Source: Roseovarius indicus (GTDB lineage: Bacteria; Pseudomonadota; Alphaproteobacteria; Rhodobacterales; Rhodobacteraceae). From it: DNA of 64,000 nucleotides. The notes beneath the pieces were generated by a model that searched no databases, was not told the DNA's origin, and saw only the letters and a program-made list of their open reading frames with translations. Shown here one piece after another: positions 6,247-22,726 of this stretch (position 1 is its first letter; each line of letters starts with the position of its first letter). The position numbers and the translations under genes were made by a program. The stretch covers positions 4,526,001 to 4,590,000 of the forward strand of contig NZ_CP031598.1 of assembly GCF_008728195.1 (NCBI RefSeq), in the 5' to 3' direction.

Positions 6247-6265
6247 ACGCGCGTAACACGCGCGT
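6247..6265. repeat. two ACGCGCGT palindromes one helical turn apart
   Basis: ACGCGCGT, itself a perfect palindrome, occurs at 6247-6254 and 6258-6265, an 11-base period. It lies in the 184-base gap between the receiver gene ending at 6310 and the hybrid-kinase start at 6125, about 120 bases before that start. The spacing would put two identical protein contacts on one face of the DNA. No known operator is recognised. Confidence 0.4.
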
Positions 6266-6309
6266 CGAGGCGCCAAAATCCAGCTGGGCCAAACCGTCGC
6301 ACAGAGGAC

Positions 6310-6708
6310 TCACCCCGCCGTGCCGCCCCCGGTTTCCGACCAGATCGCGCGCAGCTCGTCGGCCAGCGTCATCGGGTCGAACGGCTTGGACAGAACCTTG
6401 ACGGCCCCCAGCCCCATCAGCCGGTCGACCTCCTTGCCGTGCACCTTCGCCGTCAGGAAGACGGCCGGTGCCGAGGCGAGGCTGTCCAACGACTTGAGCG
6501 CAGACATCGTCATCGGACCATCCATGTCCGGCATCATGACGTCCAGCAGCAAGAGCTGCGGACCAAATGCCTCTGCGGCCGCAACCGCCTCTTCCCCTGA
6601 AGAGAAACCGCGCACTGAAAGACCCCCCACAGTCGACAGGGCCACGTCGATCAGATCGCGGATGGCCGGGTCGTCGTCAACAAACAAGACCCTTTCCAGC
6701 TCGCTCAT
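6310..6708 (-). CDS. single-domain response regulator
   Basis: A 132-residue receiver-only protein. Acidic residues lie in VLFVDDDPA, the phospho-acceptor is Asp56 in LLLLDVMMPDMDG, the switch threonine is in VFLTAK, and the invariant lysine is in LSKPF. The start is the ATG at 6708, preceded by GAGGAAG at good spacing; the frame extends in-frame to 6777 and into the kinase gene, but without a ribosome site. It lies 55 bases downstream of the 1056-residue membrane kinase, so it is a likely phosphorylation target of that kinase, which has no receiver of its own. Confidence 0.93.
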   Translation of the reverse strand: MSELERVLFVDDDPAIRDLIDVALSTVGGLSVRGFSSGEEAVAAAEAFGPQLLLLDVMMPDMDGPMTMSALKSLDSLASAPAVFLTAKVHGKEVDRLMGLGAVKVLSKPFDPMTLADELRAIWSETGGGTAG

Positions 6709-6763
6709 GTCACTTCCTCTGGTTTGCATCCCGGCGTCACCCATTATGGGACACAATTGCGTG

Positions 6764-9700
6764 TCAGGCATGTTCAAATGCTCCTGTCACGTCAAATCCC
6801 GTTTCGCAGAGTGGAAATTCAACCCAAAAACGCGCGCCCTCGCCTTCGCGAGACGCAAAACCAACACGTCCACCCATCTGGTTCGCCAGTTCCTTCGATA
6901 TTGCAAGACCGAGCCCGGAACCACCGCTTTTCCGCGTGTCCGACGCATCGGTCTGTGAAAACTTCTCAAAGATTGCCCCGTGAAACTTCTCGGGGATCCC
7001 GCGACCCCGGTCGCTCACGACGATACGTACCGCTCCGGGGATATTCTCTACGGTAATCGTCACTGTCTGGCCTTCTGCCGAGAACTTGACCGCATTCGAG
7101 ATGTAGTTGGTCAGGATTTGTGCGGCCCGGTCATGGTCGACCGAAACCTGCACCTCGGGCACCGTGCCCGCGATAGCCAGCCGCACGCCGAACCGCTCGG
7201 CATATCCCTGGTTGATGTCGACCGAGTGCCGCACCAGCGTGTCCAGCGGGCTCGGCGCGACCTCCAGCGTCAACTTGCCCGCGGTAAGCCGTTCGAGATC
7301 GAGGATCTCGTCGATCAGCCCGCCCAGCCGCTTGCTGTTGGCCATGGCCGCCTCGACGATCTTGTCGCCCTTCTCGTCCAACTTGCCAAACACGCCATTC
7401 CGGACAAGCGACAGCGTCCCCGAAATCGAGGTCAGCGGCGTCCGAAGCTCGTGGCTGACCGTCGCGATGAACTCCGCCTGCATCCGCGCCACCCGCCGCT
7501 TCTCGGTGATGTCGCGGATGATGGCGATGAAGACCTTCTCACCCCGCGTCTCCACCTCCGAAACCGCGAACGACACCGGGAAGGCCTCGCCGTTCCGGCG
7601 CAGCGCCACCGTCTCGCGCACCTGCCCCAGAAGCTCCGACGCTTTGGGCGACAGGTACTCCGCCATGAACCCGCCTTCGAGGCCCGTCGTGCCTTCCGGG
7701 AACAACGCCTTCACATCGCGCCCGATCACATCCTCGGCCGGATAGCCGAACATGCTTTCCGAGGCGCGGTTGAACGACTGGATCGCCCCCTTGCGGTCCA
7801 GCGTGATGATACTGTCGGCCACGTTGTCCAGCACCGCCGCGTTGCGCTTGGCGGCGTTGCGCAGCGCCTCGGCCGCGCGGCGGTCTTCGGTCACGTCGAG
7901 ATTGACGCCGATCATCCTGACCGCCCGCCCCTGCTCATCCCGCGAAACCCGCGCCACCGAGCGGAAGACCCGCGCGCCCTTCTCGGGGTTGTAGATGCGG
8001 AATTCCGAGGCAAACGGTTCGCCGTCGCCGTCCAGCGCCGCCTGCACTTCCTTGGTCACCCGCGCCCGGTCTTCCGGATGCACCAGGTCGGGCCACGCAT
8101 CCATCGTCTGGTTGAACGCCCGCGGCGACAGCCCGTAAAGCCGGAAATTCTCGTTGCTCCATTCGACCTTGCCGGCCTGCGGGTCGTAGGCCCAGATGCC
8201 GATCTGCGCCACTTCCGTCGCAAGCCGCACCCGCTCGAGCGATTCCCTCAGCATCTGCGAGGTCTTCCGCCGGTCGGTGATGTCGGTCATGATCGCGATG
8301 AAGCCGGCGTGGCGCCCGCTCGAATCCCATATCGGGTTGCAATGCACCTCGGCCCAGTACGGACGCCGCACCTTGCCGTAACAAACGACCTCCACGTCGA
8401 ACCCCTCGATCCGGCTCAGCGCATCCCGCATCTGGGCCACCACCTCCGGGTCCGAGTCCGGGCCAAGGAACACCCGCCCGGGCCGCTGGCCCACCACCTC
8501 GTCCAGCGTATAGCCCGACATCTCGGTGAACGCGTCGTTGATCCACTCGATCCGCGCGTCCACATCGGTGATCAGCACCGAGTTCGTGGTCTGCCGGGCC
8601 ACCTGCGACATCCGGTCAAGCTCGCGGGTCCGGTCCTGAACCCGCTCCTCGAGCGTTTTCTGCACCGCCTTCTGCGACCGGAAGCTCTCGCCCAGCTTCG
8701 CCGACATGTCGCGAAGCGATCCCGACAGGGTCTCGTACTCGGCGACATTGCTGGTGGGGAACATCACGTCGGGGTCATCGCCCGACATGATCGACCGGCT
8801 CAGCCCGTCACTGATCCGCGCCAGCCGCCGGATCGGGGCGCCAAGCCATTCGCTCAGCACCTTGGCAACGATCATCGCCAGCCCGATGGCAAGCGCCAGC
8901 ACCACCATGTTCCAGCGCCCGCCCGATTCGAGATGCGCCATCATCGAGTCGGCCGACAGTTCCACGATCAGGTCCCGCCCCGCGGCGTCGCCCTCCAGCG
9001 GCGCGCGCAGGAAATAGCGGCCCTGCCGCGCCCGCACCATCGCCGGCATGTCACCCGTCGGGTTCCAGAGCATCAGCCCGTCGTCATGCGGTGTCATCTC
9101 GCCCGGCCGGCTCAGGCTGACCATCGACCCGATCAGCACCTCGCTCTCCCCGTCCGGCCCCACCAGCCCGATACCGATATCCGGCCGCCGCGGCAGGTCG
9201 TGCGCCATGTTCGCCATGAACAGCGCGATGTCGCTTTCGTAGGCCGCCTCCATCTCCGACGGCGCGCGCCCCTCCGCCAGTTCCTGCCGCGACCACCCGG
9301 CCAGCAGCGAGACCAGCGACTCCACATGCTCCATCGCCTGCCGGTATTCGCGCCGGCTTTCCAGAACCGTCATGCCCGCAGCCGACACGCTTGCCACCAG
9401 CACCAGGACATAGAAGACCAGCGAATGGAACGAGGCCCGCGGCCCGGGCTTGAACCCCTCCGGCAACCACCGCCGCACCGCGATCAGCAACAGCCCCGCG
9501 ACCACCGCGTTGAAGACACCGTTCGTCGCCTGTTTCAGCGCGACCAGCCCGGCCGACACGCCGTCCATCTGCATCAGGCCGGAATAGAACACCAGAACCA
9601 TGGGGCAGCCGGCAAAGATCCAGAACAGCGCATCCGCCATGGCGATGTTCGAAATCCGCCGCGACAGCGCATAGACCGCCGCCGCCTCGGCCGTAAACAC

Positions 9701-9934
9701 GACAAGCGCATAGGGGTGCCCCCAGGCATAGACCGTGAAACACGACCCCATCAGCGCCACCACGCACCCGCCGGCCAGCCCGAACAGGCGCACCGCGATC
9801 AGGGCGAAGACCGAACCGAAGATGAACGAGATCGGGCCGAACAGCGTGACGTTGACCGCGTTGCCGGCATACGCCAGCCCCGACAGCAGCAACAAGCCGG
9901 CCACTCTCTGGATTACACTTGGTCCGGATGCCAC
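6764..9934 (-). CDS. membrane multi-PAS sensor histidine kinase
   Basis: A 1056-residue inner-membrane kinase. About six hydrophobic segments (residues 5-200) are followed by a probable periplasmic loop (about 205-335), another membrane segment (about 340-362), a HAMP-like linker and coiled coil (to about 445), three PAS domains (about 450-830) and HisKA with SHELRTPLTS (His828). The HATPase region has ISNAVKFS, DRGRGI and GGSGLGLAI. It lacks a receiver, so it should signal to separate receivers, the nearest being at 6310-6708. The start is a GTG at 9934 with CGGAG eight bases upstream. It is the first leftward gene from the 9935-10362 control region. Its first PAS resembles that of the kinase at 11373. 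Confidence 0.92.
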   Translation of the reverse strand: MASGPSVIQRVAGLLLLSGLAYAGNAVNVTLFGPISFIFGSVFALIAVRLFGLAGGCVVALMGSCFTVYAWGHPYALVVFTAEAAAVYALSRRISNIAMADALFWIFAGCPMVLVFYSGLMQMDGVSAGLVALKQATNGVFNAVVAGLLLIAVRRWLPEGFKPGPRASFHSLVFYVLVLVASVSAAGMTVLESRREYRQAMEHVESLVSLLAGWSRQELAEGRAPSEMEAAYESDIALFMANMAHDLPRRPDIGIGLVGPDGESEVLIGSMVSLSRPGEMTPHDDGLMLWNPTGDMPAMVRARQGRYFLRAPLEGDAAGRDLIVELSADSMMAHLESGGRWNMVVLALAIGLAMIVAKVLSEWLGAPIRRLARISDGLSRSIMSGDDPDVMFPTSNVAEYETLSGSLRDMSAKLGESFRSQKAVQKTLEERVQDRTRELDRMSQVARQTTNSVLITDVDARIEWINDAFTEMSGYTLDEVVGQRPGRVFLGPDSDPEVVAQMRDALSRIEGFDVEVVCYGKVRRPYWAEVHCNPIWDSSGRHAGFIAIMTDITDRRKTSQMLRESLERVRLATEVAQIGIWAYDPQAGKVEWSNENFRLYGLSPRAFNQTMDAWPDLVHPEDRARVTKEVQAALDGDGEPFASEFRIYNPEKGARVFRSVARVSRDEQGRAVRMIGVNLDVTEDRRAAEALRNAAKRNAAVLDNVADSIITLDRKGAIQSFNRASESMFGYPAEDVIGRDVKALFPEGTTGLEGGFMAEYLSPKASELLGQVRETVALRRNGEAFPVSFAVSEVETRGEKVFIAIIRDITEKRRVARMQAEFIATVSHELRTPLTSISGTLSLVRNGVFGKLDEKGDKIVEAAMANSKRLGGLIDEILDLERLTAGKLTLEVAPSPLDTLVRHSVDINQGYAERFGVRLAIAGTVPEVQVSVDHDRAAQILTNYISNAVKFSAEGQTVTITVENIPGAVRIVVSDRGRGIPEKFHGAIFEKFSQTDASDTRKSGGSGLGLAISKELANQMGGRVGFASREGEGARFWVEFPLCETGFDVTGAFEHA

Positions 9935-10126
9935 GAATGATACTCCGAAAGGTTACACGTAGCTGAACTGCCTGCGGGTTCGGTAACGTGGCCCCTTGAC
10001 ATGCTCGTCGCTGGACTTCCAGAGATGTCTGGCTGAGAGGCTATTTCAGGGTCAATATGTTGCCGATACAAAACATTCACGTTTGAAACATGTGACGGAA
10101 AGGCCCTCACACGCAAACGTCGAATG

Positions 10127-10142
10127 TTAAGGAATGCTTAAC
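10127..10142. promoter_or_regulatory. CtrA-type binding box TTAA-N7-TTAAC
   Basis: TTAAGGAATGCTTAAC is an exact match to the alphaproteobacterial CtrA consensus (TTAA, seven bases, TTAAC). It lies 193 bases before the leftward kinase gene and 220 bases before the rightward receiver gene, in non-coding DNA. Binding is inferred from the match only. Confidence 0.6.
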
Positions 10143-10183
10143 ACTTTTTAATTGTGCATTCAGGCCACACCCCTCCTTACCTT

Positions 10184-10226
10184 ACGGCAAGAAACCACAA
10201 GCACCTGACGGCAAGAAACCACAAGC
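10184..10226. repeat. two perfect 19-base direct repeats, period 24
   Basis: ACGGCAAGAAACCACAAGC occurs at 10184-10202 and again at 10208-10226 with no mismatch, separated by five bases. The period of 24 bases is slightly over two helical turns. It may be a tandem operator or a recent slippage duplication. Only two copies are present, so it is not a CRISPR array. Confidence 0.7.
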
Positions 10227-10301
10227 TCAAAAAAGGTGCCCGTTTCCTGCCGCATTTCGGCCAGAAAGAACAAACAGAATACTCAAATCTGCCACACCCT
10301 A

Positions 10302-10315
10302 ACCGAAATTTCGGT
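10302..10315. promoter_or_regulatory. 14-base perfect palindrome before receiver gene
   Basis: ACCGAAATTTCGGT is a perfect palindrome 47 bases before the GTG start at 10363, in an AT-rich stretch. Its placement and symmetry fit an operator for a dimeric regulator; none is identified. Confidence 0.4.
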
Positions 10316-10362
10316 GCAATTTTCGTAAAAAAACAACCAAAGGGTAAAGAACGAGGGCGCCG

Positions 10363-11331
10363 GTGATACGGATTCTGAGCATTGAAGACGATCTGATCAT
10401 GCAGGACATGATCGCAGCCACCCTGGAAGCCAAGGGTGGCTACCGGGTCGACTTTGCCGACACGGGCGCGCAGGGCCTGACCATGCTGTCGGAAGGTCTG
10501 CGCAAGTTCGATTGCCTGCTGATCGACGTCAACCTGCCCGACATGACCGGCATCGGGTTCCTCGAAAACGCCCGCGCCCTGCGCGGCTACGACGAGACGC
10601 CGATGATCGTGGTCACCAAAAGCGACGACGAGACGACCATCGTCGATGCCTTCTGCGCCGGGGCCACCGACTTTCTGGCAAAGCCGTTCATCCCGTCCGA
10701 ACTGATCGCCCGGCTCAGCGTTGCCCAGCCTCAGACGCGCCAGCGCTCCCACGACGTTCCCGCGCCCCGGCGCCAGACATTGCCTGCCGTGGCCGGCGTC
10801 ACCGCACCATCCTATCGCAGCAGCGACGTCTTCCTGAACTTCCTGCACAGCCTCGATCCCGGGCAGGTGCGCAAGACGACCCTGATCGCGGTCGACCACC
10901 TCGCCGCCCATGACATGGCGGCCGCCCACAGGGATCCCGAGAATGTCGTGGCCGCCGTCGTCAACGCCATGAGCTTCGTCTTCGACGGCCAGCTGGTGAT
11001 CTGCACCTCGATGACCGAGCACCAGGTCGTTGCCGCCCTGTCCGCCCGCCCGTCGGAGACGCCGCTGATGCTGACCCACCAGCTTGTCGAGCGGATCCAG
11101 GTCACCCACCGGAACGCCGGCGGCTGGACACCGGGCATCGTCGTCGGCAATCCGATCACGCCGTCGATGTTCTTTGCCGATGAACCGCTGCGCCTGCTCG
11201 AACGGGCGCTTCTCAGTGTCGAGCGCCGTCGCCGTGCGGTGGAATCGGACCGGAACGTAGAGAACGGGCTGCCAATCGGCGGGCGAGCCGGCATGAGGGG
11301 GCGTATCCGCACGGCTGACGACTTCGCCTGA
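10363..11331 (+). CDS. response regulator with degenerate GGDEF-like output domain
   Basis: A 322-residue protein. Residues 1-120 are a receiver with ILSIEDD, phospho-acceptor Asp55 in LLIDVNLPD, switch threonine in IVVTKS and lysine in FLAKPF. The C-terminal 170 residues have no recognised DNA-binding domain; the end (PGIVVGNP, then a helix rich in L-L-E-R-A-L) resembles the last part of a GGDEF fold, but no GG[DE]EF motif is present, so cyclase activity is not expected. The GTG start follows GAGGGCG. The same architecture recurs at 13570-14538. It is the first rightward gene from the CtrA-box region, 41 bases before the next kinase. Confidence 0.85.
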   Translation: MIRILSIEDDLIMQDMIAATLEAKGGYRVDFADTGAQGLTMLSEGLRKFDCLLIDVNLPDMTGIGFLENARALRGYDETPMIVVTKSDDETTIVDAFCAGATDFLAKPFIPSELIARLSVAQPQTRQRSHDVPAPRRQTLPAVAGVTAPSYRSSDVFLNFLHSLDPGQVRKTTLIAVDHLAAHDMAAAHRDPENVVAAVVNAMSFVFDGQLVICTSMTEHQVVAALSARPSETPLMLTHQLVERIQVTHRNAGGWTPGIVVGNPITPSMFFADEPLRLLERALLSVERRRRAVESDRNVENGLPIGGRAGMRGRIRTADDFA

Positions 11332-11372
11332 AAGGCCGGACCGGATTATGAGATTTGTAATTGGTGAAAAAG

Positions 11373-13436
11373 ATGGTATCGAGTTTAATCAGTGACGTTA
11401 CGTCAAGAAGATTAACCGCGACACGCGGACCAAGGCTTAAGACGGTGGAGAGCAGTTTAGAGGGCAATACCTCCAGGGCCGATGAGGGCACCGTGGCGCG
11501 CGAAGCGTTGTCGGGTTCCGAGGACATCGGGCCTGCGGCGCTCGTGGCCACCCACACGTCCGATGTCACCCTCGTCTCCGACAACACCGGTCGCATCGTC
11601 TGGGCCAACGGCGCGTTCGAACAGCTGACAGGCTACAGCGAGGCGGAATATATCGGCCAGAAGCCCGGCGACCTGCTGCAGGGCCCCGAAACCGATCCGG
11701 CCACCGTCCGGCTGGTCAGCCGCAAGCTCGCCGTCCATGAACCCGTCGACGTCGAAATCCTCAACTACACCAAGTCCGGCGAGCGATTCTGGCTCAACAT
11801 GCTGATCAACCCGGTCTTCGGCCCCGATGGCAGGCTGACCAACTTCATCGCAATCCAGCAGGACATCACCCGCCACAAGCTCACCGAGGTCGAACTTCAG
11901 CGCAGCCGAGACCAGCTGCGCATGGCGCTCGACTACGGCGCCCTGCCCATCTGGGATCTCGAGCTTGGCACCGGCCATTGCGAGTTCTCCGATAATTTCG
12001 CGCCCCTGCTCGGAGGCACCCCCGGGGAGGGCGGCCAGTTCAACTTCGAATGGCTGATGCAGCGGTCCCACCCGACCGAGCGGCGCGGGCTGCGCCGCGC
12101 CATGCTGCGCCACGCCGCCGGCGAGGATCTCGACGTGACCTGCCGCATGCGCCAGATCGACGGCACCTGGATGTGGCTGCGCCTGCGCGGCCGCATCGTG
12201 CTCGACGAAACCGGCTTCCCGGTGCGCAGTCTCGGCGTCGTCAGCGACATCACCAAGATCCAGTCCGAACGTGTCCGGGCCGAGGAACGCGACCGCCGCA
12301 AATCCGAGGCGCTGGCCCACACCACGCATGAAATCCGCAATCTTCTCAACGGCATATCCGGCACGACCCAGGTCCTGCTCTGGTCCGACCTGTCCGAAGA
12401 ACACGCCAACCTCGCCAACCGGATCCGGAAGAACTGCGACATCCTGCACGAGCTGGTGAACCACACGCTCGACCTCTCCCGCATCGAGGCCGGCCTGCTC
12501 ACGCTTCACCCCGAACCCTTCGTCGTCTCCGGCCTCGTCGACGAGGTGCGCGACACCCTGATCGACCAGGCCGAGAACAAGGGCCTGCAACTCGTGGGCT
12601 GCACCGGCCCCGGCGTGCCCCGCCGCGTCATGGGCGACCGCGGCCGCCTCCGCCAGGTGCTCATCAACCTCACCGGCAACGCCGTCAAGTTCTCGACCGA
12701 CGGGCAGGTCTGCGTCTGTGCCGACATCACGCCCGCCGGCGACATCTCCTTCACGGTGCGCGACGACGGCCCCGGCATCCCCGAGGCCGACCAGCCGCAC
12801 CTGTTCGAACGTTTCCGCCAGGTCGATGACGGCCGCAGCGGCGAACGCGAGGGCTCGGGCCTCGGCCTGGCCATCTGCGCCGAGCTGGTCCGCCTGATGG
12901 GCGGCTCGATCGCGGTCGAAAGCAGCCCCGGCAACGGCGCCACCTTCCGCATCGTGCTTCCCCTCGAACGGGTCGAAAGCGACGACGCCGCCGAAACGAC
13001 CTCCGACACCGACCGCCCCGAGGAAATCCTCGACATCGCCATGGGCGATGCCCGGGTCCTGCTGGCCGAGGATGACGAGATCTCACGCGGCGTCATCACC
13101 GAGATGCTGGCCCTGATGGGCATCACCAACCTGCGCGCGGTCGACAGCGGCGACATCGCCGTCGGCGCCGCCAGCCAGGAACGCTACGACCTGATGATGT
13201 TCGACCAGAACCTCCTCGGCATGAAGGGCGCCACAGCCGTCCACACCATCCGCAACGGCGCCGGCCCCAACCGCCGCACCCCCGCCCTGCTGATGAGCGG
13301 CAATGTCAACGATCTGCCCGACAACATGCCGGGCAACGTCTCTGTCCTCTCCAAGCCCTTGGAATGGCAGAAACTTATCCGTCTGGTCAGCGATCTGGTG
13401 ACCGGAACGGAGCCCGTCGAAGACAAGAGCGCCTGA
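11373..13436 (+). CDS. PAS hybrid sensor histidine kinase with LOV-like PAS
   Basis: A soluble hybrid kinase of about 687 residues: PAS1 (about 55-165), PAS2 (about 175-290), HisKA (His319 in HTTHEIRNLLNG), HATPase (LTGNAVKFS, DDGPGI, GSGLGLAI) and a C-terminal receiver (LLAEDDEIS, phospho-acceptor in MMFDQNLLG, lysine in LSKPLE). PAS1 has the LOV-type stretch LLQGPETDP and a sequence like the LOV core, but the photoactive-cysteine segment (consensus GRNCRFLQG) reads GQKPGDLLQG, so no flavin adduct is expected. The H-box is unusual: RN replaces the common RTPL. The ATG at 11373 is preceded by GGTGA; in-frame GTG (11364) and TTG (11361) are alternatives. Confidence 0.9.
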   Translation: MVSSLISDVTSRRLTATRGPRLKTVESSLEGNTSRADEGTVAREALSGSEDIGPAALVATHTSDVTLVSDNTGRIVWANGAFEQLTGYSEAEYIGQKPGDLLQGPETDPATVRLVSRKLAVHEPVDVEILNYTKSGERFWLNMLINPVFGPDGRLTNFIAIQQDITRHKLTEVELQRSRDQLRMALDYGALPIWDLELGTGHCEFSDNFAPLLGGTPGEGGQFNFEWLMQRSHPTERRGLRRAMLRHAAGEDLDVTCRMRQIDGTWMWLRLRGRIVLDETGFPVRSLGVVSDITKIQSERVRAEERDRRKSEALAHTTHEIRNLLNGISGTTQVLLWSDLSEEHANLANRIRKNCDILHELVNHTLDLSRIEAGLLTLHPEPFVVSGLVDEVRDTLIDQAENKGLQLVGCTGPGVPRRVMGDRGRLRQVLINLTGNAVKFSTDGQVCVCADITPAGDISFTVRDDGPGIPEADQPHLFERFRQVDDGRSGEREGSGLGLAICAELVRLMGGSIAVESSPGNGATFRIVLPLERVESDDAAETTSDTDRPEEILDIAMGDARVLLAEDDEISRGVITEMLALMGITNLRAVDSGDIAVGAASQERYDLMMFDQNLLGMKGATAVHTIRNGAGPNRRTPALLMSGNVNDLPDNMPGNVSVLSKPLEWQKLIRLVSDLVTGTEPVEDKSA

Positions 13437-13569
13437 CCAAGCGAAACCCCGCCGAAACCTGCAACCCTGACGGTGCAATGCCACGAAAAGGCCCAAATTG
13501 CGCCCTCAATATGAGCGACGGGTCACTAAACTCTTAAGAGATTGCCCCCGTTCACGAAATGGAACCAGT

Positions 13570-14538
13570 ATGATGAGAATTCTTGCCGTTGACGATGATC
13601 CCGTATTTCGCGAGATCCTCGAGTCCTACATGGACAGGCTGGGCTATTCAGACGTGACCTACGCCGTGTCGGGCCCCGACGCGCTTCAGAACATCCAGAA
13701 GGCACAGCAGCCGTTCGACTGCTTCCTCTGCGACATCGAGATGCCCGGCATGAACGGCATCGAGCTGGTGCGCAACATCCGCTCGACCGAAGCCGGCAAG
13801 CGCGCGCCCGTGGTGATGATCACCTCGATGGGCGACCGCGAAAGCGTCGACGGCGCCTTCCAGGCCGGCGCCATCGACTACCTGTCCAAGCCGCTCGACA
13901 TCAACCAGCTCCGCGGCCGCCTCAGCGCGGTCGACCGGATCGTCCGTGAAAGCCGCCGCTTCGAGTCGATGAAGGCGATGCTGCGCGACCACGACGCCAT
14001 CGAGCAGGGCATGCGCGATTTCGACGAGCCGGTGGCGCTCAACGATGTCGACGGGGTGATGCACTACGTCGCCGTCAAGAACTACCTCGAAACCGTCGGC
14101 CGCCTGCGGATGATGAACCACGCCGCCATGTGCCTGCACATCCGCAACGCCGAGAAACTCTTCGGCCTGATGACCCGCACCGCCTTCATGGACATGCTGG
14201 GCGACGTGGCCGAAACCGCCCATGGCGAGCTGCAGACCATGCACCACATGTTCGCCTATGCCGGCTCGGGCGACTTCGTCGTGCTCCTCCCCCGTCTTGC
14301 GGCGATCGATCCGGGCGAATTCGAAGCGCTTGTCAACGTCGCGCTCGACCAGTTCTACGATCAGCTCGACGAGCCCGACGTGATGCGTCCGGTCGTGACC
14401 TGCGGCCCGGTCGTGCGCCCGTCGCTCCTGCAGTTCGGCGACCCGGTGAACATGCTCGAGAAGGCCCGCTCGCTGGCCCAGTTCCCCCTGCCGCACAAGA
14501 CACAGGTCAAATCAATCCTTCAATCCGCCAGAGCATAA
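13570..14538 (+). CDS. response regulator with degenerate GGDEF-like domain
   Basis: A 322-residue protein of the same build as the one at 10363. The receiver (1-125) has ILAVDDDP, the phospho-acceptor in FLCDIEMPGMNG, the switch threonine in VMITSM and lysine in YLSKPL. The C-terminal half has a beta-strand/helix pattern like a GGDEF fold (FAYAGSGDFVVLLPR where GGDEF would lie, later CGPVVRPSLL) but lacks catalytic GGDEF and inhibitory-site residues. The ATG at 13570 follows GGAACC; the frame extends upstream to 13498 without a ribosome site. It lies 12 bases before the Hpt gene and is likely co-transcribed. Confidence 0.87.
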   Translation: MMRILAVDDDPVFREILESYMDRLGYSDVTYAVSGPDALQNIQKAQQPFDCFLCDIEMPGMNGIELVRNIRSTEAGKRAPVVMITSMGDRESVDGAFQAGAIDYLSKPLDINQLRGRLSAVDRIVRESRRFESMKAMLRDHDAIEQGMRDFDEPVALNDVDGVMHYVAVKNYLETVGRLRMMNHAAMCLHIRNAEKLFGLMTRTAFMDMLGDVAETAHGELQTMHHMFAYAGSGDFVVLLPRLAAIDPGEFEALVNVALDQFYDQLDEPDVMRPVVTCGPVVRPSLLQFGDPVNMLEKARSLAQFPLPHKTQVKSILQSARA

Positions 14539-14550
14539 ACGGGAGCAGTC

Positions 14551-14916
14551 ATGACACAGGCACAGATGCAGGATCTCGATCAGATCATGGCCCAGAGGCT
14601 GGCCAAGACGCGCGATCTTTTCCTCAAGATTTTGTCCGAACGCGACCGCGAAATCGTCGACGCCCGCCGCAAGGTCGAACAGGACGAAGCGCCGATCGAC
14701 CGCGGCATGGCCGAGATCCGCTCGGTCTATCACCGGATCGCCGGGTCGGCCGGCTCGCTGGGCTTTGCCGAGTTCGGCGATCTCGCCTCGACTTTCGAGG
14801 CCACGATCGACAGCCTGCGCGAAGCGCGCCGCACGGACGACACCGGCTGGGCCGCCGTCGTCCGCGATTCCGAGATCTTCCGGGCCCGCATCGCAGAGAT
14901 CCTGGAACGCCGCTGA
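14551..14916 (+). CDS. Hpt (histidine phosphotransfer) domain protein
   Basis: A 121-residue, mainly helical protein. VYHRIAGSAGSLGFAEFGDLA matches the Hpt signature (H-x-x-x-G-S-A-x-x-x-G), so His61 is the expected phospho-acceptor. It would move phosphate between the hybrid kinases' receivers and stand-alone receivers, completing a His-Asp-His-Asp relay. The start follows GGGAG at good spacing, and an intrinsic terminator lies 40 bases after the stop. As the only Hpt gene in the island it is probably a shared hub, although phosphotransfer partners cannot be read from sequence. Confidence 0.9.
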   Translation: MTQAQMQDLDQIMAQRLAKTRDLFLKILSERDREIVDARRKVEQDEAPIDRGMAEIRSVYHRIAGSAGSLGFAEFGDLASTFEATIDSLREARRTDDTGWAAVVRDSEIFRARIAEILERR

Positions 14917-14956: not shown

Positions 14957-14993
14957 CCCGGCCCGCCAGACGCGTGGGCCGGGTTATTTTTTA
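14957..14993 (+). terminator. Rho-independent terminator after Hpt gene
   Basis: CCCGGCCC (14957-14964) pairs perfectly with GGGCCGGG (14976-14983) around an 11-base loop and is followed by TTATTTTTT. This ends the rightward signalling operon before the protease operon. Confidence 0.88.
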
Positions 14994-15075: not shown

Positions 15076-17262
15076 ATGCGCGGCCTGTTGGTGGTTTTGA
15101 TCTTCGGTATTTTCCTGTCTGCGCCTCAGCGCGCGGTATCGGAAACTCGCGCCCTTCTGATCGGCGTCTCCGACTATGACGATAGCGCCGGTGTGGCCGA
15201 CCTCAAGGGCCCGGCCAACGACGTCCGCCTTCTGAGCACAACCCTGCGCAACCGCGGCATCGACGACCTCATCGTGCTGGCCGACGGCGTAGAGGGCGGC
15301 GCACGCCCGACCCGCGCCGCGATCCTCGATGCCTTCGCCGCGCTCGCGGCCTCCGCGCAGGACGGCGATTTCATCTACATTCATCTCAGCGGCCACGGCA
15401 CCCGGCAGGCCGACCGCAACGGCGACGAAACAGACGGCCTCGACGAGGTCTTCCTGCCCGCCGACACCGCCCGCGCCGAGGCCGGCGCCGGCGCGATCCC
15501 CAATGCCATCACCGACGACGAGATCGGCGCGGCGCTCCATGCCATCCGCATGACCGGCGCCGATGTCTGGTTCGTTCTCGACAGCTGTCATTCCGGCTCC
15601 GGCACCCGCGCGGCCACACCCGGCACCGTGGCCCGCTTCGTCGATCCGGCCACGCTGGGTGTCTCCGTCACCCCCGCTCACCAGGTCGAGGACGCCACCG
15701 ACCCGGCCGAGGGGCCCGAACCGCCGGGCGGCTTCCTCGCCTTCTACGCCGCCCAGTCCACCGAACTGGCCCGCGAGGTGAACTTCGCCGAGGCCGAGGG
15801 CGGCGACGACTGGTACGGCCTCTTCACCTCCACGCTCGCCGCCCGGCTTCAGGACGACGCGGCGCTCAGCTTCCGCCAACTCTTCCAGGCGGTGCTCTCC
15901 GACATGAACGCCGGCCACGTGCCGGGCGCGGCCCGGCTTCAGACACCGCTCTGGGAAGGCAACCTGATCGACGCCGCCGTCTTTGGCGGGCGCGACACCT
16001 CCGGCATCCGCCGCTTTGCAGTGACCGACGACAGCGTCGCCGCCGGCATGGTTCACGGGCTGGCCGAGGGCACGTTGCTGGGGCTCGTCGCCGACGCGGC
16101 CGATCCGGCCGACGCGGTGATCGGCTTCGCCCAGGTCGAAGACCCCGACGCGGCCGAGGCCTTCCTCCGCCCGGTCTCGGCCGACTGCACGCCGCGGGCC
16201 AATGCGCTCTGCGCCATCGAAGGCGCCCTGCCCGCCGAGACCCGCTTCGCCCAGGTCATCGCCCACCCGGTCGACCTCACCATCGCCCTCGCCCGCCCCC
16301 GCGACCTTGCAACCGGCACCCCGCTCGGCGACGACGACCCGCTGGTCCGGGCCCTCGCCGAGGCCGTCACCGCCACGTCCGACGGCACCGGGCCCGGCGT
16401 CACCCTCGCCGACACCGACGCCGATATCGACGTGCTTGCCGCCGATGGCGCGCTCTGGTTCGGCCTGCCCGCCCAGGCCGGCGAAAGCCCGGCGGGCCTC
16501 ACCTGGCATCCGGATGACGGCCCCGAGCTCTCCGCCGTGCTCGCCCGCATCGCCAAGGCCGAAACCCTGGCCCGCATGCTCGAAAACCTCTCCGGCTCAG
16601 GCTCGCTCCTGAACCCGAGCCCGATCAACGTCGAAACCCTGCTCCAGCCCGCCCCGATCGAGGCGCTGGCCGAGCCGGGCAGCGACGTTTCGCCCCGCCG
16701 CGAATGCCGCGCAGCCTACCGCGCCGCCAGCCAGACCGCGCCCGTCGCCCTCGACAGTGGCGCCAGGCTCAAGCAATGCGACGGCCTCGCCTTCCGCGCC
16801 CAAGGCGCCACCGGCGATACGTTCGACGTCAACCGCGTGCATGTCGACGCCCAGTTCTGCGTCCACGCCGCCCACGAACGGATCACCGGCAACCGCAACG
16901 CGCTCGCCCTCGGCCCCGAGATGACCATCTGCTCCGACTGCCCGGGCGGCTATTCCGCCGGCACCGAACGGCTTTTCGTCGTGGTCACCGAGGCGCGCGA
17001 CAACACCGAATCTCTCAATCTCGAAGGGCTCGTCGAAACCTGCGACGCCAGCCCGACACGGGGCGCGGCCACCGATCCGCGCGCCTTTCTCGAAGACCTG
17101 GCCAAGCGCGGGGACACGCGCGGCGCCTTTGGCGGACTTGGCTCCGCCGGCATCTGGGTCGAGGCATGGACCTGGCAAGTACTGCCGCGCCGCGAAGCGT
17201 TTCTGCGCGCGGGGCGGCCCATCAAGCAACCGGAACGCGTGGGGACGCAACAGGATTACTAA
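15076..17262 (+). CDS. exported caspase-like (C14) protease
   Basis: A 728-residue secreted or periplasmic cysteine protease. A signal peptide (hydrophobic core LLVVLIFGIFLSA) precedes a p20-like caspase domain: RALLIGVSDY, LKGPANDV, then catalytic His107 in IHLSGHGTR and Cys171 in VLDSCHSGSGTR. The long C-terminal region (about 300-728) has many aspartates and several cysteines late on (such as CSDCPGG) and no recognised domain; it may be a substrate-binding or regulatory region. GGAGG at 15061 serves the ATG at 15076 or an in-frame TTG at 15073. It is first in a four-gene operon with a trypsin-fold protease 12 bases downstream. The family usually cleaves after basic residues (metacaspase-like) or acidic ones; specificity cannot be read here. 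Confidence 0.88.
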   Translation: MRGLLVVLIFGIFLSAPQRAVSETRALLIGVSDYDDSAGVADLKGPANDVRLLSTTLRNRGIDDLIVLADGVEGGARPTRAAILDAFAALAASAQDGDFIYIHLSGHGTRQADRNGDETDGLDEVFLPADTARAEAGAGAIPNAITDDEIGAALHAIRMTGADVWFVLDSCHSGSGTRAATPGTVARFVDPATLGVSVTPAHQVEDATDPAEGPEPPGGFLAFYAAQSTELAREVNFAEAEGGDDWYGLFTSTLAARLQDDAALSFRQLFQAVLSDMNAGHVPGAARLQTPLWEGNLIDAAVFGGRDTSGIRRFAVTDDSVAAGMVHGLAEGTLLGLVADAADPADAVIGFAQVEDPDAAEAFLRPVSADCTPRANALCAIEGALPAETRFAQVIAHPVDLTIALARPRDLATGTPLGDDDPLVRALAEAVTATSDGTGPGVTLADTDADIDVLAADGALWFGLPAQAGESPAGLTWHPDDGPELSAVLARIAKAETLARMLENLSGSGSLLNPSPINVETLLQPAPIEALAEPGSDVSPRRECRAAYRAASQTAPVALDSGARLKQCDGLAFRAQGATGDTFDVNRVHVDAQFCVHAAHERITGNRNALALGPEMTICSDCPGGYSAGTERLFVVVTEARDNTESLNLEGLVETCDASPTRGAATDPRAFLEDLAKRGDTRGAFGGLGSAGIWVEAWTWQVLPRREAFLRAGRPIKQPERVGTQQDY

Positions 17263-17274
17263 AGGGAGACTACA

Positions 17275-18330
17275 ATGAAATTTCTTACTGCAAGCGCCAC
17301 GGCATTGTCCGTGCTCTGCCTGATCGCACCGCCTGTGGCGGCTCAGGAATCGGCCTTTTCAAAAGTGGCCGTGCCCGCAACGGGAAGCGGCACCTCGGTC
17401 GCCAAATACGTCGTCAAGGAACGCGCCAAGGCCGAGAACCTCGGCGGCGAGGCCGCCTCTCGCATCTACGGCGGCCGCGCCGCCCAGGATGGCGCCTGGC
17501 CACACCAGGTCTCGCTTCACCTGGTCGAACGGCTCGACGGCTCGACAGAAGGGCTCTACGGCTCGCAATTCTGCGGCGGCTCTATCATCGCCCGCCAATG
17601 GGTGCTCACCGCGGCCCACTGCATCGCCGATGACGAGGGGCGCGCCGTCGACCCGGCCACCATCGCGGTGAAATCCGGCGCCACCGATCTCGGCGAGGGC
17701 GACCTGCGCGCCGTCGCAAGCGTGATCGTCCACGAGAACTACGACCCGAGCACCGGCGATGCCGATATCGGTCTGATCCAGCTCACCGAACCCATTGCCG
17801 ACAGCTCCGGCCCGGTCGCGGCCATTCCGGTTCAGACCAACTCGACACAGCTGCCCGACGGCCCGGCCGTGGTCATCGGCTGGGGGATGATGGAAGAAAA
17901 CAAGTTCCCCGTCGACCTGATGGAAACCGATATCGACATCGTCTCCAACGCCACCTGCAACAAGGGCATGGCCGAGGTGTCTCAACGCGACCTGGGGGCC
18001 TTCCTCTTCGTCATCGGCACCGAGAACCGCATCCCGATGGACCGCCTCGAAGAGGCCTATTCCATCATCCTCAACAACTGGGGCGACGCGCTCACCAACA
18101 ACATGATCTGCGCCGGCGTGCCCAGCGGCAAGCGCACCTCCTGCAACGGCGACAGCGGCGGCCCGCTGATGATCAAGGAACCCGACGGCGACTGGCTTCA
18201 GGTCGGCATCGTCAGCTGGGGCCGCAAGCCTCTCGGCTCGAACGAACCCTGCGGGCATGAAAACCTCTACTCTGTCTACACCCGGGTCTCGAACTACTTC
18301 GACTGGATCGCAAGCCACGTGCGCGGCTGA
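17275..18330 (+). CDS. exported trypsin-fold serine protease (S1A)
   Basis: A 351-residue secreted serine protease. The signal peptide (to about residue 23, VAA-QE) is followed by a propeptide of about 40 residues and the activation-type junction SRIYGG (63-67). The triad is His115 in LTAAHC, Asp164 in ADIGLIQL and Ser294 in CNGDSGGPL. The residue at chymotrypsin position 189, six before the serine, is Thr288 rather than Asp, so classic Arg/Lys specificity is not expected. About 30 extra residues precede NNMICAGV. The Arg-Ile activation bond suggests a zymogen; the caspase-like enzyme encoded 12 bases upstream is a candidate activator (inference). The start follows AAGGGAG. Confidence 0.93.
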   Translation: MKFLTASATALSVLCLIAPPVAAQESAFSKVAVPATGSGTSVAKYVVKERAKAENLGGEAASRIYGGRAAQDGAWPHQVSLHLVERLDGSTEGLYGSQFCGGSIIARQWVLTAAHCIADDEGRAVDPATIAVKSGATDLGEGDLRAVASVIVHENYDPSTGDADIGLIQLTEPIADSSGPVAAIPVQTNSTQLPDGPAVVIGWGMMEENKFPVDLMETDIDIVSNATCNKGMAEVSQRDLGAFLFVIGTENRIPMDRLEEAYSIILNNWGDALTNNMICAGVPSGKRTSCNGDSGGPLMIKEPDGDWLQVGIVSWGRKPLGSNEPCGHENLYSVYTRVSNYFDWIASHVRG

Positions 18331-18351
18331 GGCGCGACAAGGAGAAACCGA

Positions 18352-19275
18352 ATGACCCTTATGACACGCACCGCGACCAGTGCGGCGCTGGCGGCGCTTC
18401 TCAGCGCCCCGGCGTTCGCCGAAGACAGCTTCGGCGGCAGCTTCGACGACGGGTTCGAGCAACCCGCCGCCGAGGCGTCGTCGGATTCCAAGGAACCAGA
18501 GCCGAATTACGGCACCGACACCCAGGCGCAGGCGGGCACCCAGCCCGCCGCCGATGACGGGTTCGGCGGCAGCTTCGGCCCGGCCAGCGAAACCACGACC
18601 GACAGCGGCACCACGGGCACCACCGCCGAGACGGCAGACAGCACGGCCCAGGATGGCGATTTCGATCCCGACTTCTCGATCACCGGCACCGGAACCGGCA
18701 CCGAAGAGACGACCGAGACCGCCATGCCGGAAACCCAGCCCGAGCCACAGCCTGAACCGCAGCCCGAGGCACAGCCCGAGACCAACCAGCAGGCACAGGC
18801 CATCACGGTCGACCCGCAGATCCTCACCTTCGAAAGCCGCGACTACGGCGTGCCGCCCACAGGCAACCTTCGCAATGGCGGCATGCATGCGCCCACGCCC
18901 ACCATGGTGCCCGGCGCCTCCGTGGTCTCGACCGAGGGTCTGGCCAACGCCATGGCCAGCGGGCTCGACATGATCATCATCGACGTGCTCGGGCAGCAAT
19001 ACTCCCTGCCCAGCGCCTACATGATCCCCGAGATGTCCTCGCCCGGCTCCTACCAGGACCGCATTCAGCAGCAGACGGGCCAGTTCCTGGCACAGGTCAC
19101 CGGCCAGGTCGCCGACTACCCGATCATTCTCTACTGCTCCGATCCGCAATGCTGGCTCAGCTATAACGCGACCCTGCGGGTGGTGGCAGCCGGCTATACC
19201 AACGTCTACTGGTATCGCGGCGGCATCACGGCGTGGCAGATGGCGGGCTTCCCGGTCTATCCGTCCGGATACTGA
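18352..19275 (+). CDS. exported rhodanese-like protein, low-complexity N-half
   Basis: A 307-residue exported protein. The signal peptide (cleavage near AFA-ED) is followed by a disordered acidic stretch to about 155 with twice-repeated GGSF elements, Thr/Ser/Glu-rich sequence and a PEPQPEPQPEAQPE run. Residues 170-307 are a rhodanese-like domain ending in YCSDPQCW, then YNVYWYRGGITAW-type sequence (here TNVYWYRGGITAW). The cysteine pair before tryptophan recalls the CXXCW proteins of PQQ-linked catabolism clusters, but the spacing is CxxxxCW. It may bind a thiol or act as a scaffold for the neighbouring proteases. It sits 21 bases after the serine protease gene and one base before the CHAT gene. 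Confidence 0.8.
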   Translation: MTLMTRTATSAALAALLSAPAFAEDSFGGSFDDGFEQPAAEASSDSKEPEPNYGTDTQAQAGTQPAADDGFGGSFGPASETTTDSGTTGTTAETADSTAQDGDFDPDFSITGTGTGTEETTETAMPETQPEPQPEPQPEAQPETNQQAQAITVDPQILTFESRDYGVPPTGNLRNGGMHAPTPTMVPGASVVSTEGLANAMASGLDMIIIDVLGQQYSLPSAYMIPEMSSPGSYQDRIQQQTGQFLAQVTGQVADYPIILYCSDPQCWLSYNATLRVVAAGYTNVYWYRGGITAWQMAGFPVYPSGY

Positions 19276-19276
19276 C

Positions 19277-22200
19277 ATGCGGCGCGCGGCCCTGGGGTTC
19301 GCTCTCGCCGCGGGCCTTTTCCTTGCCCATGCGGCCCCGGCGCAGGACAGCACCGCCGATATCGGCGCCCTGAACGGGGCGACGATGGAAGCGCTGAACG
19401 CGGGCGACACACCGCTCGCCGTGGAACGCGCCCGCGCCGCTGTCGAAGCGGCGCGGGCCGCCGACACCCCCGACCCGCTGGCCTATGCCTACGCCCTCAA
19501 CAACCTCGGCTATGCCCTCGCGCTCGCCGGTGATGCCCAGGCCGGCGCGCAGCTCGACGAAGCCATCGCCTTCGCCGAGCAAGCCGGCCTCACCGGTTCC
19601 GACCCGTGGTATCTCGCCGCCTCGAACCGCGCGAATGTCCACCTCATGCAGGGCGACATCCCCGCAGCCGAGGCGCTGGTCGACCGCATCCTTGGCGCCG
19701 GCCGTGGCACGCCCGACCACGGTCGCGCCCTCGGCATCGCCGCCTCGGTTCATTTCGCCGCCGGACAATACATCGCCTCCATCGAATTCCTAGAAGAACT
19801 CCTCGCCGTCGAACCCGAGCTTCTGCGCCCGCTCTACGGCACGATCTACACCACCTACGCCCAGACGCAGGAAGCGATGGAACAGGCCGGCCGCACCGAT
19901 GAGGCCATCGCCCTCATCACCGGGCGCATCGCCGTCCTCCGCCGCTTCATGCCGGAAGAGGTCGAGGGTATCCAGAACCTGCTGTCGCAGAAATTCTTCC
20001 TCCTCCACCAGGCCGAACGCTATGGCCCCGCCGCCGACGCCCTGCGCGCATGGGGCGCCGCCGCGCCGCTCTCCGAAGACGAGCTGGCCTATGTCAACGA
20101 GATGGCGACCCTGACCCTCACCGCAACACAGGCCGCCAGCTACACCGAACTGCGCGAGGTGCAGCTCGACTATGCCCAGCTTGCCGTGGCCTATGCCGAA
20201 CTGACCGGCATCGAGAACGACCCCCGCCTCGGCCTCGCCCTGCGCGAGGTGGCCCATGCCCAGACCAATCTCGGCCTCCACCAGGAGGCCGCCCAGACCC
20301 TCCGCCGCGCCGCCCGCGTGCTCGAGGCGACCGAGGAGGGCCGCAAGAGCCTGCACCTCATCCTCGACGACCTCGCCGCCAACGCGTGGCAACGCAATGA
20401 CCTGTCGCTCTCCGAACGGCTCTACGACCAGTCCGAGCGTGCCTACAGCATCGCCCTCGACCAGGGCGCGGAACCGCTCACCCCCATCGACCTCGCCATC
20501 AGCGCCACCAACCGGGCCCGCCTGATGACCGACATGGGCCGCCCGCAGGATGCGCTCGACCTCACCGAAGAAGCACTGACGCAATACCGACAAAATACCG
20601 ACGTTATACCGACGTGGAATACACGGGCCGAAATGGCCCGCATCCACGCCGCCGCGGCCGTGGCGCTCGGCGATCTCGGGCAGCCGGAACAGGCCCTCGA
20701 CCGCCTCGAACAGGCCCTCTCCATCGCCCGCGAGGCCTATCCGGAAAACCACCCCGACCTTGCCACCGCCCTGACCAACGCCGCCGACTTTCTCTTCGTT
20801 CAAGGCAATAAAACAAGGGCTGTCAGCCTTTTGGAAGAGGCCATCGCCATCAACGACGCCGCCCTGCCCCACGCCCTGCCCATGGCCGTCGACGCCCAGC
20901 TGAAACTGGCGCTCTTTCACGTCTCCGAGGGCAATCTCGACGCCGCCACCCCCCTCCTCCGCGATATCGCAGAGGCCCGGAAATCCCCGCTCTACCGCGC
21001 GCAACTCCCTGAATCTATTCAAGATTTCGAGATCCTCGCCTGGTCCCTCCTCGCCCGCTCCGGCACGGCACCGCCCGACCCCGCCACGATCGACGAGGCC
21101 CTCTCCGCCCTGCAATGGACCCAGGTCACCCGCTCGGCCGAAGCCCTCGCCATGATGGAAGCCCGCCTCGCCGCCGACGACCCCCTGCAAGCCGTCTGGC
21201 TCCGCCGCCGCCAGGACCTCCGCGAAGCCCACACCCGCGAAACCTCCGCCCTCCTCACCGCCTACGGCGAAGGCGCCGACCGGTCCACGCTCCGGGCCTT
21301 TGATACAAGGCTCAACACGCTCGAGCGCGACCTGCAGACCGTCGAAACCAGGCTCTCCGGCCTGGGCCTTGAAACCGCCGGCCTCACTGGCGTCCAACCC
21401 TTGCAAGTCTCTGAAATTCAATCCCTTCTCAAGCCCGACGAGGTGCTCCTCACCTTCCTTCTGCCCGGCCTGCGCCCCGACATGGTCGCCGCCCTCGACG
21501 GCTCTTCCAACCAGACCATCGCCATCAGCCGCGGCGCCATCCGCGTGGCCCCCATCCCCGACGACAGCCGCCGCAGCCTCAACGACAGGATCACCGCCTT
21601 CCGCTGCCAGATCGCCGTCAGCGACCCCGGCTGCGCCACCTTCGGCACCACCGGCCTTCGCGGCGCCATGCTGGCCGAACAGGAGGAAGACACCCGCGGG
21701 TTTGACGCCGAAGGGGCATTCCGCCTCTACCGAGACCTCTTCGGCGGCGTAAGCGGCATGCTGACCGGCAAGGACCACCTGATAATCGCCCCGCCCGCAG
21801 ACTTGTTACGCCTGCCTTTTCAAGCACTTGTCGCCGACACACAGGGCGGGCCGAACGGGTCGCCCGACTGGCTCATTCGCCACCACGCGATCTCGGTCCT
21901 GCCTTCGATCAGCAGCCTCCGGGGCCTTCGGAACCACCCGCTCCCCCGCGGCAAGGGGCTTGGCCGCTACCTCGGGATCGGCGACCCGGTCATCGGCACC
22001 AGCGGCCCGGTCGATTGCGCCACCGTCCGCATGGCCGCCCTCCGCGCCGCCCCGCCCGACACGCCCGACCTGATGGATAACGACACCGGCACTCCCCTCG
22101 CCCGCCCGGCCGTGCTGCGCTCGCTGCCCCGCCTGCCGGACTCGGCCTGCGAAGTCGAGGCCATCGGCCGCGTCTTCGGCGGGTCCGCTTCGCTCTTCAC

Positions 22201-22726
22201 CGGCCCGCAAGCCACGGAAACGAAAGTCAAACTCCTCGACGCCTCGGCCCAGCTCGCCCAATACGACGTGATCGTCTTCGCCACCCACGGCCTGACGGCG
22301 GGCGAGGCCGGCGCCCGAGCGCCCGGCCTTGTCCTAACCCCGCCCGACACGCCCACGGCAGAAGATGACGGCCTGCTCACCGCCGCCGAGATTGCCACGC
22401 TCGGCCTCAAGGCCAGCCTCGTCGTCCTCTCCGCCTGCAACACCGCCGCGGGCGAGGATGCCAACGCCGAGGGCCTTTCCGGCCTCGCCCGAGCGTTCTT
22501 CCACGCCGGCGGCTCCTCGCTCCTCGTAACCCATTGGTCTGTCTATTCTTCCGCCGCGGTCGAGGTCTCCACCGGCCTCTTCCGCACGCTTCAGGACGAG
22601 CCCGACCTCAGCCATGCAGAAGCGCTGCGCCGCTCGGTCCTCGCCATCCTCGACGACCCCGCGCAGGATCCGCTGCGCACGCATCCGTCCTACTGGGCCC
22701 CCTTCGCCATCGTCGGCCTGCGCTAA
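19277..22726 (+). CDS. exported TPR-CHAT caspase-family protease
   Basis: A 1149-residue protein: signal peptide (APA-QD), a helical TPR array from about 30 to 640 (several A-x-x-L-x-x-L-G/A repeats, e.g. LNNLGYALALAGDAQAG), a coiled-coil linker, and a C-terminal CHAT domain (about 790-1149). The catalytic dyad is His1004 in VFATHGLT and Cys1054 in VLSACNTAAGE, the spacing and motifs of active CHAT proteases. TPRs normally bind partner proteins, here possibly the other operon products. The ATG lies one base after the rhodanese-like gene's stop, so translation is coupled. The stop overlaps that of the convergent GAPDH gene. Inside the gene TACCGAC occurs three times at an 11-base period (20585-20613). 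Confidence 0.9.
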   Translation: MRRAALGFALAAGLFLAHAAPAQDSTADIGALNGATMEALNAGDTPLAVERARAAVEAARAADTPDPLAYAYALNNLGYALALAGDAQAGAQLDEAIAFAEQAGLTGSDPWYLAASNRANVHLMQGDIPAAEALVDRILGAGRGTPDHGRALGIAASVHFAAGQYIASIEFLEELLAVEPELLRPLYGTIYTTYAQTQEAMEQAGRTDEAIALITGRIAVLRRFMPEEVEGIQNLLSQKFFLLHQAERYGPAADALRAWGAAAPLSEDELAYVNEMATLTLTATQAASYTELREVQLDYAQLAVAYAELTGIENDPRLGLALREVAHAQTNLGLHQEAAQTLRRAARVLEATEEGRKSLHLILDDLAANAWQRNDLSLSERLYDQSERAYSIALDQGAEPLTPIDLAISATNRARLMTDMGRPQDALDLTEEALTQYRQNTDVIPTWNTRAEMARIHAAAAVALGDLGQPEQALDRLEQALSIAREAYPENHPDLATALTNAADFLFVQGNKTRAVSLLEEAIAINDAALPHALPMAVDAQLKLALFHVSEGNLDAATPLLRDIAEARKSPLYRAQLPESIQDFEILAWSLLARSGTAPPDPATIDEALSALQWTQVTRSAEALAMMEARLAADDPLQAVWLRRRQDLREAHTRETSALLTAYGEGADRSTLRAFDTRLNTLERDLQTVETRLSGLGLETAGLTGVQPLQVSEIQSLLKPDEVLLTFLLPGLRPDMVAALDGSSNQTIAISRGAIRVAPIPDDSRRSLNDRITAFRCQIAVSDPGCATFGTTGLRGAMLAEQEEDTRGFDAEGAFRLYRDLFGGVSGMLTGKDHLIIAPPADLLRLPFQALVADTQGGPNGSPDWLIRHHAISVLPSISSLRGLRNHPLPRGKGLGRYLGIGDPVIGTSGPVDCATVRMAALRAAPPDTPDLMDNDTGTPLARPAVLRSLPRLPDSACEVEAIGRVFGGSASLFTGPQATETKVKLLDASAQLAQYDVIVFATHGLTAGEAGARAPGLVLTPPDTPTAEDDGLLTAAEIATLGLKASLVVLSACNTAAGEDANAEGLSGLARAFFHAGGSSLLVTHWSVYSSAAVEVSTGLFRTLQDEPDLSHAEALRRSVLAILDDPAQDPLRTHPSYWAPFAIVGLR

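Follow-up and report, generated by a model that had tools for sequence, protein, structure and literature searches.

Gene content and conservation of the locus

A 64,000-nucleotide stretch of the 6.17 Mb genome of Roseovarius indicus (contig 1, 4526001-4590000), hereafter the window, contains an array of four plus-strand genes at positions 15076-22726. They encode a metacaspase-like (C14) protease, the precursor of an S1A chymotrypsin-fold protease, a rhodanese-like protein and a protease that combines tetratricopeptide repeats (TPR) with a CHAT domain (Table 1). An earlier reading of the DNA made without database searches, here called the sequence-only reading, had described the genes as tightly spaced and co-oriented, and the coordinates of the open reading frames and the successive gaps of 12, 21 and 1 base confirm this. 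The same four genes were found in the same order in locus L085 of Roseovarius sp. MAG CCMP836 (81-90% identity by BLAST) and in two genomes from two other genera, G005 and G213 (44-63% identity). Since the order recurs in these genomes, the quartet is not a chance cluster.

Caspase matches at E<=1e-30 were obtained in 35 of 394 genomes of the family, eight of them of the window type (at least 49% identity) and 27 of other types (33-51% identity over the matched stretch). We fetched stretches from all 35 genomes, that of the window included. Eleven window-type loci were examined, namely the window, L085, G005, G213, G028, G329, G225, G229, G073 and two on plasmids (Sulfitobacter sp. SK012 and THAF37). 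The S1A gene is located directly 3' of the caspase gene in 8 of the 11, and is followed by the rhodanese-like gene in six (the window, L085, G005, G213, G028 and G225; G329 is cut by a contig end). A hydrolase gene homologous by tblastn to a DUF900 protein of G005 adjoins the caspase in nine; the name derives from a Pfam run on the G005 protein only and was extended to the other loci by homology. The window and L085 have no such hydrolase at the locus, and the two DUF900 matches of the host genome are about 0.95 and 2.4 Mb away. Gene calls in the G-numbered genomes came from a simple predictor that placed some starts wrongly, while the tblastn comparison is independent of the predictor. According to its annotation, the THAF37 plasmid locus (L116, 16162-24640) continues beyond the caspase and hydrolase genes with one for a mechanosensitive channel and one for a long caspase family protein.

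The S1A protease has a basic activation site and a non-tryptic pocket

The catalytic triad of the S1A protease (H115, D164 and S294) is intact, and the triad and Asp194 were present in all 120 homologues compared. These were the best 120 of 1683 at E<=1e-20, and the caspase and rhodanese-like sets used below were the best 120 of 426 and of 434; the S1A and caspase searches scored only candidates that shared most words with the query. The top sequence match in PDB was a tryptase (1.1e-34). The zymogen-type junction named in the sequence-only reading is genuine: the codons for Arg63-Ile64 were confirmed, the P1 residue, which precedes an Ile/Val-x-Gly-Gly start, is Arg in 120/120 homologues, and in the 30 fetched loci that cover the junction it is Arg (22) or Lys (8).

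Position 189 at the base of the S1 pocket is Asp in trypsin. The window protein has Thr instead, as do most homologues (Table 1), and the 30 fetched loci have Thr (24), Gly (4), Ser (1) or Leu (1); Asp189, the mark of a true trypsin, occurs in 7 of the 120 homologues. A basic activation site is kept in these enzymes, most of which lack a tryptic pocket. Because P1 is invariably Arg while 113 of the 120 are without Asp189, tryptic self-activation of the S1A protease appears unlikely. The 170-loop stretch is also unusually long, the corresponding stretch of trypsin being much shorter at about 13 residues.

Chymotrypsinogen-type zymogens have the triad, Asp194, an Arg15-Ile16-type junction and a non-Asp189 pocket in common with the window protein, and chymotrypsinogen is activated in trans by an Arg-specific protease, trypsin. 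The window protein differs from them in being bacterial, in its 50-residue 170-loop stretch and in its presumed caspase-fold activator. The host genome has four further Pfam trypsin loci, of which three have a DegP-like Ser motif and the last is not readable as to type.

The S1A gene is linked to the caspase gene

When 149 family genomes were queried with the S1A protein, 116 gave some trypsin-like match but only nine gave a match below 1e-40, the next match having an E-value of 1.2e-15. In all nine genomes with this subfamily the S1A match adjoins a caspase match. All 32 S1A genes in the fetched loci lie directly 3' of a caspase gene on the same strand, a count that is biased by the stretches having been taken mostly round caspases; an in-frame TGA interrupts one of these caspases, the second in G121 (L099, 6922-9000), itself among the nine genomes. 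The S1A gene 3' of this caspase is open, and the TGA may reflect decay or a sequencing error. By tblastn, S1A adjoins a caspase in 29 of the 35 caspase-bearing genomes. As an indirect sign of location on one contig, 44 of the 120 S1A homologues equal a caspase homologue in source-sequence length, compared with 0-2 of 120 in five draws of a shifted-length control. The divergences of the caspase and the S1A protein are correlated (Mantel r 0.85, n=30, reached in 0 of 1000 shuffles).

The conserved pairing of caspase and S1A genes is well supported, and this pair, not the quartet, is the common core of the locus family. The conserved gene order expected from the sequence-only reading thus holds in L085, G005 and G213, but the quartet is one variant among several.

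The caspase retains the residues of a metacaspase pocket

Asp49, Ser105, His107, Asp169 and Cys171 of the caspase are each conserved in 120/120 homologues. Asp49 and Asp169 align with Asp95 and Asp211 of Trypanosoma brucei MCA2 (4af8; a numbering offset of 20 was worked out from the mutated Cys213 of this entry). Passages of PMC6426788 describe Asp95 and Asp211 as the two acidic residues of MCA2 that receive basic substrates, and state that orthocaspases cleave after positively charged residues. The conservation of the pocket Asp residues predicts that the window caspase retains an Arg/Lys-specific metacaspase pocket and cleaves after Arg or Lys. Asp123, Asp147 and Asp148 align with Asp173, Asp189 and Asp190 of MCA2, which we take to be Ca2+ ligands, and are invariant in 16 aligned sequences; with plasmid sequences added, Asp147 is found in 18/19 and Asp148 in 17/19. 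The caspase is probably Ca2+-dependent, and once exported it would be well served by the Ca2+ of seawater, about 10 mM.

Compared with type I metacaspases and bacterial orthocaspases, the window caspase differs by its signal-like N-terminus, by a C-terminal region that has eight conserved Cys and no Pfam family, and by being of a type that mostly adjoins an S1A zymogen. The score against the model for EACC1-associated caspases (NF047832) was 42.5, below the cut-off of 140. Three other caspases are encoded in the genome (L143, 8977-10257; L144, 5312-8362; L145, 4859-8701), all with signal-like N-termini at their predicted starts, and that of L145 weakly matches a WD40-caspase of G073.

Predicted export of the four proteins

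The N-termini of the four proteins, MRGLLVVLIFGIFLSAPQRAVSE, MKFLTASATALSVLCLIAPPVAAQ, MTLMTRTATSAALAALLSAPAFAE and MRRAALGFALAAGLFLAHAAPAQ, look like Sec signals. Conserved Cys residues come in even-numbered sets, which fits disulfides: eight non-catalytic Cys in the C-terminal region of the caspase (120/120 homologues), six in the S1A protease (five in 120/120, one in 119/120) and four non-catalytic Cys in the CHAT protein, invariant in five orthologues. A crude signal test for a hydrophobic start was passed by 110 of 120 S1A and 96 of 120 caspase homologues, and with an AxA site added by 87 and 52, respectively. Export of all four proteins is a prediction well supported by the signal-like N-termini and the conserved Cys sets.

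The sequence-only reading had assigned signal peptides and intact catalytic residues to all four proteins. The signal-like N-termini and the three protease sites bear this out, but the rhodanese-like protein has no CxxxxR-type loop. The remark of that reading that caspases are usually considered cytoplasmic was overstated, given the N-terminal helices reported in PMC3501461 and the signal-like N-termini of all four host caspases. PMC3501461 states that 46 of its sequences have one N-terminal helix, which may be a signal peptide.

A second, larger locus type

Of the 27 genomes with other types of caspase, 22 had at least two caspase matches, two candidates being scored per genome. In 16 loci of this second type (L126-L141), the caspase gene is followed by the S1A gene in 15, a PDZ-trypsin protease occurs with a response regulator and a histidine kinase in 14, a patatin-like gene in 10 and a CHAT gene in 3 of the fetched stretches; Pfam names were assigned to the neighbour genes from one example per kind. 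The companion hydrolase or lipase genes and this two-component-linked locus type are additions to the sequence-only reading. Small proteins with signal-like N-termini and no Pfam family above the cut-off accompany the second type, often beside a divergent caspase (Table 1). G005, which also holds a four-gene locus, contains a two-caspase locus without S1A (L087, contig C22, 7087-16811).

The second-type gene set is also present on two annotated Pseudosulfitobacter plasmids of 65 and 82 kb (L117 and L118, both with two caspases), the two examined among 46 Pseudosulfitobacter plasmid records that matched the caspase. Overall, several marine roseobacters have the module, some of them on plasmids. 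The locus is accessory, because the same-genus genome G278 has no caspase match at 1e-30. Among 385 genomes of the class, the S1A subfamily was found at 1e-22 only in the genome of the window.

A candidate zymogen cascade and its alternatives

We put at roughly one half the probability that the locus encodes an exported proteolytic module working as a zymogen cascade, with the exported caspase as the activator of the S1A zymogen. The four proteins would cross the membrane by Sec. The metacaspase-like enzyme, with its acidic Arg/Lys pocket and probable dependence on Ca2+, would then cut the S1A precursor at Arg63-Ile64, and the freed N-terminus of Ile64 would pair with Asp293 (Asp194 of chymotrypsin) and switch the S1A protease on. 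With a chymotrypsin/elastase-like S1 pocket the enzyme would not readily activate itself, and the relationship would resemble that of trypsin to chymotrypsinogen. The CHAT enzyme would act in the compartment of the caspase as another protease of the caspase clan, and the CxxxxCW rhodanese-like protein would probably tend the redox state of the cysteines in both Cys proteases. In relatives the locus often includes a hydrolase (DUF900 or patatin) with a signal-like or lipoprotein-like N-terminus, so that the module would most likely serve to break down or remodel the envelope in a controlled way. This is our first choice for the biological role, and in the two-component-linked form the process would respond to stress signals.

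The proteolytic cascade suggested by the sequence-only reading is favoured by the non-tryptic S1A pocket, the acidic caspase pocket and the fixed adjacency of the genes; these are indirect indications. A bacterial, extracytoplasmic analogue of blood clotting, in which a metacaspase activates a chymotrypsin-fold zymogen in the company of a CHAT protease, a thiol-tending partner and often an envelope lipase, is a description that we offer more tentatively.

Several observations weigh against a cascade. The seven S1A homologues with Asp189 could self-activate, and the junction in L096 reads Arg-Gly-Ile-Gly-Gly, not Arg-Ile or Arg-Val. S1A is absent beside the caspase in 3 of the 11 window-type loci (SK012, THAF37 and G073), and a second-type locus in G005 lacks it too; among the caspase-bearing genomes it was not seen by the caspase in G020, G073, G184, G272 and G273, with G022 cut by contig ends. 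Caspase loci without S1A imply that the caspase has other work too. Furthermore, linked genes share history, for which reason the Mantel correlation is no proof of interaction, and some of the database homologues did not pass the signal-peptide heuristic.

The best surviving alternative, which we nevertheless consider unlikely, is that the proteases are exported in parallel, being co-regulated and independent, for example in the digestion of external protein, with the S1A protease activated by another protease or by itself. The homologues with Asp189 and the caspase loci without S1A would be expected under such an arrangement, and the trypsin-family gene of the host genome that is not readable as to type also counts in its favour, whereas the S1A subfamily was nowhere found away from a caspase in the 149 genomes and the non-tryptic pocket goes together with an invariant basic P1. 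Less probable still is a periplasmic defence or self-destruction module, in which phage or envelope attack would trigger the caspase and the CHAT enzyme and so unleash the S1A protease and the lipase on the envelope. Its spread is patchy, with 35 of 394 family genomes and none in G278, caspase loci are carried by all four plasmids examined, and caspase, trypsin and CHAT effectors are gathered in loci, as here, in the predicted conflict systems described in passages of PMC10907252. Those systems are described with NTPase sensors and EAD adapters (PMC10907252), however, of which none was found among the neighbours scanned here with Pfam. Moreover, PADLOC returned for the window only a generic caspase model at 1.4e-15, all else being at E>0.02. 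The idea that the CHAT enzyme, and not the C14 caspase, activates the S1A protease, the caspase having a separate substrate, seems to us the least probable: CHAT and C14 belong to one clan, and the CHAT gene is present in 10 of the 11 window-type loci (not in G329; that of G073 differs in make-up, with Sel1 repeats) and in second-type loci of G005, G099, G100, G020, G346 and the two Pseudosulfitobacter plasmids, but its low frequency in L126-L141 compared with that of a caspase beside S1A speaks against it, if weakly, since the stretches are finite.

For the window caspase there is a precise candidate substrate, a near-constant neighbour with an invariant basic activation site at which most members are probably unable to cleave themselves. 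If the cascade is real, a caspase-fold activator and a chymotrypsin-fold zymogen would work together in an extracytoplasmic compartment, and the discussion of bacterial caspases, so far centred on death in the cytoplasm, would move to the cell envelope. A literature search by title and abstract, with most subscription papers outside its coverage, yielded no description of such a locus, in agreement with the sequence-only reading, which knew of no system of this makeup. PMC3501461 reports proteolysis domains in 23 metacaspase operons, among which there may be relatives of the locus described here; the words 'trypsin', 'serine protease' and 'CHAT' are absent from the main text of that paper. The passages of PMC4933709 covered here make no mention of signal peptides, trypsin or CHAT.

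The rhodanese-like and TPR-CHAT proteins

The rhodanese-like protein consists of two FGGSF repeats, a P/E/Q-rich linker and a C-terminal domain with the motif Cys262-x4-Cys267-Trp. Rhodaneses have an active loop of the CxxxxR type, in place of which the window protein has C-x4-C-W. Cys262 and Cys267 are conserved in 120/120 homologues and Trp268 in 119/120; the two Cys are the only ones beyond residue 25 in 116 of the 120. The protein may act on the two Cys proteases by way of a dithiol or a persulfide. FGGSF-like repeats occur in 87 of the homologues and in none of the other 33, and 37 of the 120 equal an S1A or caspase homologue in source-sequence length. A CW-containing rhodanese-like domain is shared with the PQQ_CXXCW family (TIGR03865), but the score of 81.9 bits is below the cut-off of 128.05.

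The CHAT gene is the only one in the host genome above the Pfam cut-off. The protein has the TPR plus CHAT architecture of Csx29 in the type III-E CRISPR system (Craspase), from which it differs by its signal-like N-terminus and by a CHAT part that matched none of the PDB sequences at E 0.1. Recruitment by the TPR, as proposed in the sequence-only reading, is unsupported, with evidence in neither direction. A Pfam scan of the four proteins and three neighbours gave no gasdermin match; a genome-wide search was not made.

Table 1. Features of the protease locus and of related loci. Positions refer to the window unless a locus is named.
Feature	Position	Strand	Remarks
Metacaspase-like (C14) protease gene	15076..17262	+	728 aa; ATG start; in-frame TTG at 15073; PF00656 6e-23, residues 26-296, 82.2 bits (cut-off 21.4)
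Metacaspase fold			Residues 21-306 of caspase; followed by C-terminal region without Pfam family
Caspase catalytic His107 codon	15394..15396	+	His in 120/120 homologues
Caspase catalytic Cys171 codon (DSCHSG)	15586..15588	+	Cys in 120/120 homologues
Caspase C-terminal region	15988..17259	+	Eight conserved Cys; last ~200 residues weakly Ig-like-sandwich-like
S1A chymotrypsin-fold protease precursor gene	17275..18330	+	351 aa; signal-like N-terminus; PF00089 4e-50, residues 64-345, 171.1 bits (cut-off 20.6)
Zymogen-type activation junction Arg63-Ile64	17461..17466	+	P1 Arg 120/120; P1' Ile 79, Val 41 of 120
Stretch of 50 residues, Cys228-Cys279 (170-loop)	17959..18108	+	Cys-Cys spacing 51 in 120/120
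S1-pocket position 189 = Thr288	18136..18138	+	Thr 106, Asp 7, Ser 6, Ala 1 of 120
Rhodanese-like protein gene	18352..19275	+	307 aa; signal-like N-terminus; PF00581 2e-8, residues 208-297
TPR-CHAT protease gene	19277..22726	+	1149 aa; signal-like N-terminus; PF12770 9e-51, residues 831-1147, 173.5 bits (cut-off 24); TPR_12 7e-20
CHAT domain with His1004/Cys1054	21767..22717	+	Dyad intact in 18/18 aligned CHAT proteins of loci
Terminator-like stem-loop plus T-run	14957..14983	+	Upstream of operon, after Hpt gene
Small proteins with signal-like N-termini, second locus type	L098 9915-10535; L090 739-1449; L091 10730-11371		

Neighbouring genes

A hairpin scan found one hairpin compared with a shuffle mean of 4.5, which makes the call of a terminator upstream of the operon weak taken alone. 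At the other end, a convergent GAPDH gene shares four bases with the end of the CHAT gene. Positions 1-14916, upstream of the operon, contain a dense phosphorelay cluster with several histidine kinases, response regulators and the Hpt gene on both strands, and similar phosphorelay genes are likewise located upstream of the operon in L085.

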